From assembly GCA_031763025.1 (NCBI GenBank), contig JASSKH010000028.1:7986045-8050044 (forward strand): 64,000 nucleotides of DNA, written 5' to 3'. This document shows, piece by piece, positions 33,704 to 62,912 of the stretch. The notes below the pieces were generated by a model. The model saw only the letters and a program-made list of their open reading frames with translations. It was not told the origin of the DNA and searched no databases. Source of the DNA: Macrocystis pyrifera. Taxonomy: Eukaryota; Sar; Phaeophyceae; Laminariales; Laminariaceae. Within the stretch, counting starts at the first letter, position 1. The number at the start of each line of letters is the position of its first letter. A program made the position numbers and the translations under genes.

Positions 33704-36700
33704 ATGAATGCTGGCGGTGGCGCAGACACGCACATTCTTCCGCATATTACGATTGCTGGCGCCGCCGCCGTCGCCACCGCCTCTGCTGTTGATGGTGCCA
33801 ACCAATCGCAACAACAGGCCGTTGGGAACTATCGTCCTTCTGCTTCTGATGGGTCTGAGGGATCGAAGACGTCATGTCGAGACGTCGATACAGCAGCAGC
33901 TTGTGGATCCGGAAGGGTCAGGATCCAGCCGATTGACACGCGCATTAAACTCCATATGAAGCAGACACAGGTATGTCTGAGTACTCCTGCTCGTACTACT
34001 ACAGTCTGTAGGTAGAGATATGCATGCGTCAGCACTGGGATCATATTTCAGGACATTTGGGGTGGTACCGAATGTAATACTCTACAGTACTACAGAGTAC
34101 TGCTGCTGCACTGCAGAGCTCCGTCCCCACGTCTCTATTTATCCCTGCCTGTTGAGACCTACGAGAGCTTCACGTGTGCTACTACTGTAGTATAGACTAC
34201 TGTACCAGGCACCATATGATACAACACCTACACCAGTGTGTATGTACGGCTGAGTAGTTTCGCACGCTCCCCATCACTTGGACGGTGCCGCAGGGAATGA
34301 GCATGCGCTCCCGCGCCAATTTTGGCAACACGCACATGATGGCCTCGCAGCCGGGGCCTGTGAGCTTGAGCTTCACGAAGTTGGTGGAGTCAGGACTGAG
34401 CTTTGTTGAGGCGAGGAAGCAAGTGGCCAGGGCTACAAGGTGACCGTTTACTGGCCCGTGTATTGTAGCATATGTCCAGACGGCGATGTGTTTGTCACTT
34501 TGTTGTCGTCTTACAGTCTACCAGGCATACAGCGTGTGATATCCGTTGATGGTGTCTATGATGTACGTACAGCGTGGTATTAATAGGTACTTTGAAGTGT
34601 TGATGTTTTCATGTGCCCCAGGGAAGAATTTTACATTACGACTCTGTTTTTCGTTTTTTTAATCACTGTAACTTTCCAGCCCCTTTTTAGAACGGCAGTC
34701 CCGTTTTGGGGACAAACCACTCAAATTATAAGTAATGCGTCCCCAAAACGGGACTGCGGTCCTAAAAAGCGTAGGAGGTTTTACCCTCAGCGGTCTTCTC
34801 CTGGACAAGCCGTGGTCACAGGTGTCGAGGTGTCGTTCCTTCTCCCCCCCGGTAAGTTCCTTCATTTTTTGTTGCGCATGGGGTTCAGCATTCCCACGGC
34901 TCGTCGATTTTTATCGAAGAAGCTAACTCACGCTTTCGCTCTTTCCGCTATAAAATTTTTTTTTTTTATGCACGAAAAAGTCCTTACGAGTACGAGTATG
35001 CCCTCGGTGAGACTTTAACCCTCAAAATTAATCTTAGTAGGCACGCGGACGACCTACTATGTCACCGGGGACGCCGGCTGTACAATATTAATGACACTGT
35101 TTGACACTGCGAGTACTGCGTCATCCAGGTATGGATGTGGCACTCGCCATGACGTGGGTAAACAAGACCCACGGTGTACTATTATAGCTCGAGGCACGAA
35201 TGCCTCCACCTGACACGAACGCCTTCACCCGTAGTGTGTTTTACCGCAATAAGATCACTTGCAGTAAATGTTTCTTGGGTGTTGACTTGTCGCTTGCCCG
35301 AAGCTGCGTTCACCGCACACACGGACTTGTGCCACAAGAACTTGTTCCCCGTCTTGTCATCAAAACTCGTCGATATTTCAACTTGTTCCCCTGTCTTGAC
35401 ATCAATACCGGTCGATCTTGCTCTAAGACAGTAGTTGTCTTGTTCTTTTCAGGGTTGCAACTGTGTTATTCTTATTTTCAGTTCGTGTTCGTACTTGGTA
35501 CGTACGAGATGTGCTATGGTACTGCTTTGAATGAGACTGAAAGCCCGGTGATAGCTCAAGCATTGGGATCGCATTTGTAGTACCGTCAGTCGAAACCGTC
35601 CGTTCTCTCCACCTGATTGTACCCTGTGTCAATATTCAAGAGGCTCGAAAAACCGAGTTATAGTATTATGGCTGAGAGTGTAAACGCACCCTTACCTGTT
35701 TCCATATTGCCATTGATGACATTTTGAATGGAATGTGCCAATAAATGTGCCCCGTGTCTCGGAACGACGATAAAATGCGCGTCTACAAACCAGGGTGGGA
35801 TCTGAAAGTGACACAGTACGTAGTGCGTACAATATGAACGTTGACGAAGTTAAGAGACAACTACATCATTGGCTAGACAACGCAGAGCTGGCGCTGGCTC
35901 TCTCTGCAGGGAATTGTCATGTGTCCCAATTAAAATACAAGGGGCCGTGTACGACTCGTCGCGCGCAGCGATAACCTACTTGTACAGTCCTACTAACTGT
36001 ACCGCGAGCTCAAAGCATACAGTAGTGGGCGCCCGCTGATGGGAAGCACTATGTTAGAAAAAAATATTTCAGATTGGCACGAATACTAATGCCATGGGGT
36101 TATAAAACACAGCGCAACAGTGGGATGCTCGAAACCCCCTACGATAGAGTTACAGTAAATCTACGTCGGAAATAAAACAAGGACATTGAGAGTGGACACC
36201 TAATTGACGTAGACACCTAACCGACGTTTGTTACCAGCGGGCGCCCTCTGTAGACGGATGATACGACCGACCGCTCTCCTCGCTATTTTGGTCGCTGTTC
36301 TGGTTAACTTTCGCCGCCGCGCGCAGCGCCTGTTACCAATTGGAAAACTGATGACTGCTGGCAGCACTTAGTGCAGAAGAAGTGTAACCGCTTATTATGC
36401 CGCATGTTATCCCACGCAAAGGGAGGCGCACCAGCTATTCGTTCGAGAAGGAGAGCGAGAACTGGCAACGGAAATGTCATTTCGTGACGTGCTAGAGAGA
36501 GCCAGAAACGCGCACACGCTCGGCACCGCGACTCTCTCCAACAAGATCGAACGGATGCACAGGCGTGAACGAGAGCAACAGGTGGTCACAAAGGATAAAA
36601 CAAAATAGCCCAGTCGCGTGCCTGGTGCGCATTGGAGACCTACGAATGGGGGAGAATTTGTGTCACGAAATACGGGAGATCAAGGTTGAGTCTTACGTAC

Positions 36701-62912: not shown

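Follow-up and report, generated by a model that had tools for sequence, protein, structure and literature searches.

The window, a 64,000-nucleotide stretch of the Macrocystis pyrifera genome (GenBank contig JASSKH010000028.1, positions 7,986,045 to 8,050,044 of the forward strand), carries on its plus strand a multi-exon gene for a leucine-rich repeat (LRR) protein. With slightly better than even confidence, we regard this gene as encoding a single-copy giant-kelp LRR scaffold, in which the linker between the first two LRR blocks (A and B) holds a degenerate piece derived from a WW domain. The genome searched comprised 537,376,219 bases in 223 contigs; the published giant kelp assembly is given as 537 Mb in 223 contigs with a GC content of 50.37% (PMC10498591).

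Between 38778 and 62912 on the plus strand, 16 exons joined by splice sites and by the LRR register gave a chain of 664 codons with zero stops and consistent phases (Table 1). When followed from 39427 past the window to the end of the third LRR block (C), the chain comprised 17 stop-free exons and 723 codons. Addition of four upstream exons in phase, beginning at 33704, brought the total to 943–976 codons, the spread resulting from the choice among 15 acceptors within a GGA-rich stretch. A preliminary description of this DNA had proposed a multi-exon LRR gene with exons at 42621 and 43407; such a gene, on the plus strand, and its exons 42621-42774 and 43407-43483, with matching phases, were confirmed in the 664-codon chain. 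Its estimate of 970 codons over 20 exons was about right in length, but three of the four N-terminal exons were absent from an automatically derived chain, which chose only 34294-34439 among them.

Table 1. Predicted exons and related features of the LRR gene, in window coordinates.
Feature	Position	Strand	Basis and remarks
Possible N-terminal exons	33704-33970, 34294-34439, 36422-36581, 38342-38588	+	Phases join and frame open
Exon ahead of LRR block A	38778-38945	+	Donor AAG/GTATGT good, phase 0; acceptor score -3.4
LRR block A, exon 1	39427-39578	+	Spliced chain, Pfam, LRR register; absent from automatic chain
LRR block A, exon 2	39937-40123	+	Ends in GC donor; absent from automatic chain (GT donors only)
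Block A final repeat, exit, and linker start	41210-41353	+	Spliced chain and automatic chain
Linker exon 1, Ser-rich, 51 full codons	42621-42774	+	Exon ranking, automatic chain
Linker exon 2, WW-like strands 1-2, phase-0 end	43407-43483	+	Exon ranking, Pfam WW, shuffles
Possible 54-base 5' extension through alternative acceptor	45296-45349	+	Open frame, candidate acceptor
LRR block B exons	45350-45447, 47580-47681, 49680-49812, 50581-50655	+	Spliced chain, Pfam, automatic chain, register
Block B end with exit cap	53302-53445	+	Spliced chain and automatic chain
B-C linker, no Pfam family	54450-54584	+	Pfam scan, automatic chain
LRR block C, first exon, doubtful edges	56609-56665	+	Spliced chain; absent from automatic chain
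LRR block C exons	60156-60314, 60555-60639, 62791-62912	+	Spliced chain and automatic chain
LRR block C, past the window	67084-67281, 68521-68669 (window-extended numbering)	+	Chain continues

The automatic chain was obtained by domain-blind dynamic programming over 33.5–105 kb, allowing GT donors only and using scores trained on other exons of the same gene model. It lacked the exons starting at 39427, 39937, and 56609 and added some unlikely ones. The donor at 40123 is a GC donor (ATG/GCAAGT) of a GC-AG intron, across which the LRR register of block A is kept. The acceptors of the accepted exons scored from -4.4 to 9.0. The weakest edges are those of exon 56609-56665 (acceptor -4.4; donor GTTGCT, -6.9), which coincides with the only 20-residue step in the repeats (residues 528-548), and this exon and its join are therefore doubtful. 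The 5' edge of exon 38778-38945 is also uncertain because of a GGA repeat upstream, and the automatic chain favors a start at 38877. Exon candidates after block C are located at approximately 69.4, 72.9, 75.8, 77.0, 80.0, and 81.2 kb (window-extended numbering); no Pfam family exceeded its cut-off in these tail candidates (proteins 7-10 scanned), and the solved-structure search found no relatives of them.

The preliminary description counted two LRR blocks, whereas the in-register repeats define three, with five repeats in A, six in B, and six or more in C, spaced 23 residues apart except at the single shorter step. In the 664-residue chain, the in-register repeat starts span residues 83-175 (A), 311-426 (B), and 528-640 (C), the 23-residue spacing in C holding from residue 548, and a motif scan found four further starts out of register at residues 44, 54, 344, and 495. 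Block C extends beyond the window and is followed by the cap NPFKSPPPELL. The LRRs are far above chance in Pfam (LRR_8, E = 6.6e-39), and membership of PF13855 is clear, at 131.9 bits against a cut-off of 27 with 10 matching stretches. NCBIfam returned seven LRR-bearing bacterial families, all far under their cut-offs. A single bacterial match among the GTDB genomes (36%) was taken as generic LRR similarity and set aside, and a pattern search of viral contigs for relatives gave no match.

In a one-way sequence search, the nearest solved proteins were LRRD1, followed by a Leptospira LRR protein (LIC11098) and SHOC2, both at approximately 157 bits; this supports the SHOC2-style LRRs proposed in the preliminary description. 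The top two matches are LRRD1 chains (9fqr and 9ijj), and an entry named 'Flagellar associated protein' (8glv) was also present; all three entries are presumably axoneme structures. For block C alone, LRRD1 was again the best solved match, with the exit cap aligned. The kelp protein thus resembles SHOC2 and LRRD1 in its 23-residue LxxLxLxxNxLxxLP repeats, and LRRD1 in its aligned NPxxxPPxE exit cap, but differs from them in that its three LRR blocks are set apart by linkers, of which one carries a WW-like piece, and in its candidate tail exons, in which no known domain was recognized.

An affinity to ROCO proteins, also proposed initially, was not borne out. Brown algae have been reported to possess many LRR-ROC-COR (ROCO) genes, regarded as candidate immune receptors, in which LRR exons of 72 bp and phase 2 are shuffled (PMC11378527). 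The gene in the window shares with these the large size and the distribution of the repeats across many exons. However, none of its 17 exons is 72 bp long, the start phases 0, 1, and 2 are mixed, and a P-loop scan of the plus strand over 33-105 kb found none in a model exon, its one match (38072) lying outside the exons. Membership of the ROCO family is therefore unsupported by exon lengths, phases, or the P-loop scan. A genome-wide search for COR-A gave zero matches at E ≤ 0.01; given the many brown-algal ROCO genes reported (PMC11378527), this search was probably blind to COR domains split by introns.

The two linker exons together comprise 231 nt, or 77 codons. Blocks A and B are separated by a gap of 3996 bp, in which all three frames were scanned for open AG..GT intervals 45-260 nt long; the 2114 intervals obtained were ranked by splice-site and third-position-base scores trained on other exons of the same model, with no use of the WW motif. 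The linker exons 43407-43483 and 42621-42774 ranked third and fourth, respectively, and all of the top 12 intervals overlap the two exons in frame. Rank 1 is linker exon 2 taken from 43348, which is incompatible in phase with the preceding exon, and rank 2 is the same exon taken from 43425, the start that is also used by the automatic chain, in which both linker exons are included. A three-position coding score was exon-like for 43407-43483 (114 of 9013 null intervals were as good) and not exon-like for 42621-42774 (-2.7, equaled by 770 of 5993 null intervals); the third-position G+C of the latter, 0.75, is exon-like. A whole-genome search for a second copy of this linker or of the B-C cap returned only self-matches better than E = 1, and the solved-structure search with the linker gave a single match (E = 0.83), which was taken as chance.

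Linker exon 2 carries the motif W-E...G-K-V-Y-Y-V-N, and the second Trp of a WW domain is absent in the best chain. Its first Trp, Gly, Tyr-Tyr pair, and Asn fall at the spacing and loop length of the Pin1 WW domain, whereas the second Trp and the Pro are lacking in this chain and nothing is matched after position 22. Pfam scored the linker at 15.1 bits (E = 0.025) over positions 4-21 of the 31 positions of WW (PF00397), and a short segment of it at 17.7 bits over positions 4-22. The score varied from 9.2 to 17.7 bits with the length of the piece submitted and thus stayed below the curated cut-off of 26.9 throughout; in the whole 664-residue chain, WW appeared only at E = 1.7. A ribosome-receptor repeat family was matched more weakly by the linker (E = 0.096), also below its cut-off.

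A profile that we built from 21 WW sequences gave the segment 14.9 bits and aligned the first Trp, Gly, aromatic pair, and Asn at WW spacing in a 16-residue stretch of linker exon 2. None of 5000 shuffles of the segment reached this score (4058 reported a score, with 13.4 as the best). A second degenerate WW suspected by eye across the junction 41353/42621 (W..KR..N..T..P, compared with Pin1) was rejected, as linker exon 1 scored -1.0 bit with the same profile and 3161 of the 4697 score-reporting shuffles (5000 made) were as good. In a 182-kb region, the open frame of linker exon 2 ranked third at 11.2 bits, behind a WW of a neighboring locus (20.4) and a minus-strand match (14.0), and four of 10 simulated sequences of 182 kb contained a WW match of at least 11.2 bits. 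Taken alone, the motif is therefore modest and would not convince, but it sits within a well-supported exon. The preliminary description of a half-WW motif lacking the second Trp was fair for exon 43407-43483, and, at the level of a gene model, the proposed succession of LRR, WW-like piece, and LRR has support; profile searches gave the partial match in that exon, below the cut-off, and no WW in exon 42621-42774.

WW exons are common in the kelp genome, with 144 matches at E ≤ 1 when only the best candidates were scored. Thirteen loci were inspected, picked because the profile match ends early. Seven possess a phase-0 donor at, or no more than 6 nt from, the end of the match, two a phase-1 and one a phase-2 donor, and the remaining three continue in frame without a good donor there (one with a weak GT 2 nt on). 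Six of the seven phase-0 exons end 4-5 residues past the Asn or Asp of strand 2; linker exon 2 likewise ends in phase 0, 6 residues past, that is, one or two residues beyond those six. Clusters of WW exons were noted at C208:3923421-4100223, C198:8706134-9556390, C219:17879929-17911524, and C207:3511636-3987849, and in several of the inspected exons of these clusters an intron splits the domain after strand 2. Three WW-like frames (L041, L045, and L048) have neither a second Trp nor a good donor close by, and loss of the second Trp may have occurred elsewhere in this genome.

Approximately 50 kb downstream of block C and on the same strand, a neighboring locus (C209:~8105300-8126100) contains IQ-like, WW, WW, and LRR exons in series and is probably a single gene, over which the automatic chain was patchy. 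Its two WW matches score 25.8 bits, just below the cut-off of 26.9, and 36.4 bits, and both keep the second Trp. An OCRE/WW-like piece shares an open frame with LRR, and the LRR exons are SHOC2-like; the IQ-like stretch, unlisted by Pfam, and TPR-like exons further on were recognized by eye. The locus resembles the gene in the window in having WW and LRR exons on one strand but differs in that its WW exons precede the LRRs, whereas the WW-like piece of the linker lies between LRR blocks; the genome-wide search with the linker found no match to it. At a third place, an LRR exon (C207:2741131-2741277) and an intact-looking WW exon of 31.5 bits (C207:2753812-2753892) lie on one strand at a distance of 12.5 kb, and the pair may represent another WW-LRR gene; this WW lies inside a 920-residue open frame without LRR. 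Because LRR exons follow the WW exons of the neighboring locus, the combination of WW and LRR is probably not confined to the gene in the window. Downstream on the minus strand, C209:8145677-8145751 is a WW-like match of 25.5 bits, below the cut-off, in a 730-residue open frame.

The missing second Trp could be supplied by splicing. Use of an acceptor at 45296 in place of 45350 would add 18 residues in phase 0 and place a Trp at the Pin1-type distance (by-eye alignment with Pin1), and an isoform of this kind might complete the WW domain or yield a 'meta-WW' that possibly binds ligands. In yeast, the second Trp is missing from the majority of the 'meta-WW' domains left unclassified (PMC1557994), and this conserved residue is missing from the linker in the best chain as well; in contrast to the linker, the yeast domains are not placed in LRR proteins in the passages considered. 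The score of acceptor 45296 (-0.5) is within the range of the accepted exons, but that of 45350 is far higher (5.4). In addition, the extension hardly raised the WW score with our profile (15.0 compared with 14.9) and lowered it with Pfam (16.6 compared with 17.7), it lacks the Pro that usually follows the second Trp, and it was picked in a directed look among 15 Trp-bearing, phase-0 open intervals in 43484-45349. We consider such completion improbable. A separate WW-completing exon in the same interval was rejected, since the 25 top-ranked exon candidates included none of the 15 Trp-bearing intervals; that ranking covered exons of at least 45 nt that stayed 30 bases away from the exons on either side.

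A minor but appreciable chance remains with the view that the WW resemblance is fortuitous and that the insert simply joins the LRR blocks as an ordinary disordered linker. The sub-cut-off Pfam score, the simulated sequences reaching the open-frame score, and the absence of WW from linker exon 1 by profile are all compatible with this view; against it are the failure of every segment shuffle to equal the score, the support for the exon, and the intron phase that it has in common with other kelp WW exons. It is very improbable that the linker exons fall outside the main transcript, as cassette or mis-predicted exons of a plain multi-block LRR protein. A frame of 587 codons does stay open after removal of both, and the three-position coding score speaks against linker exon 1, but these exons and their overlapping variants score best in the gap and are both taken up by the automatic chain. 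The lead of LRRD1, both overall and for block C with its aligned cap, together with the presence of 8glv, would fit a flagellar (axonemal) LRRD1-type protein of swimming spores or sperm, the WW-like insert serving as a docking spacer. We find this distinctly unlikely: LRR scores accumulate over repeats, LIC11098 and SHOC2 follow at approximately 157 bits, and the solved-structure search gave no relative for the tail. Finally, a brown-algal WW-LRR family may have arisen when WW exons were inserted into LRR genes, with the gene in the window and the neighboring locus as tandem members and the half-WW as a structural hinge linking LRR horseshoes or a specialized 'meta-WW' completed by alternative splicing; this scenario appears rather unlikely.

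Under the preferred reading of a degenerate WW piece in an LRR scaffold, the protein would be a large, intracellular scaffold composed of three SHOC2/LRRD1-like solenoid blocks and their linkers, probably with a non-LRR tail after block C. The LRR faces would provide binding surfaces, and the linker between A and B would act as a hinge. The WW-derived piece, presumably descended from a WW exon, would lie in two cassette exons; it would retain the first two strands of the domain and loop 1, and the third strand, with the second Trp and the Pro, would be gone. The second Trp forms part of the proline (xP) pocket of WW domains (PMC4301871). Its absence here suggests that the proline-binding pocket would be incomplete, and an ordinary proline ligand such as PPxY is thus unlikely to be bound by the linker. 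The domain mix is unusual, but the protein is most likely a scaffold with a worn-down WW rather than a new machine. Should the succession of LRR, WW-like piece, and LRR prove conserved, two common interaction modules would be paired in brown algae in a manner unreported in the literature searched, which yielded no paper on brown-algal LRR-WW proteins. Such conservation would also provide a small example of inserted exons within a lineage noted for the shuffling of LRR exons (PMC11378527). With the WW piece as no more than a relic, there would be nothing out of the ordinary here.

Two features were observed in the introns of the gene. The first and second exons of block B are separated by an intron that contains a 710-base (ATCT)n microsatellite (45996-46705). 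In the intron preceding the exon at 60156, a minus-strand frame with a YTDD motif (59093-59371) appears by eye to be a reverse-transcriptase remnant of a retroelement.
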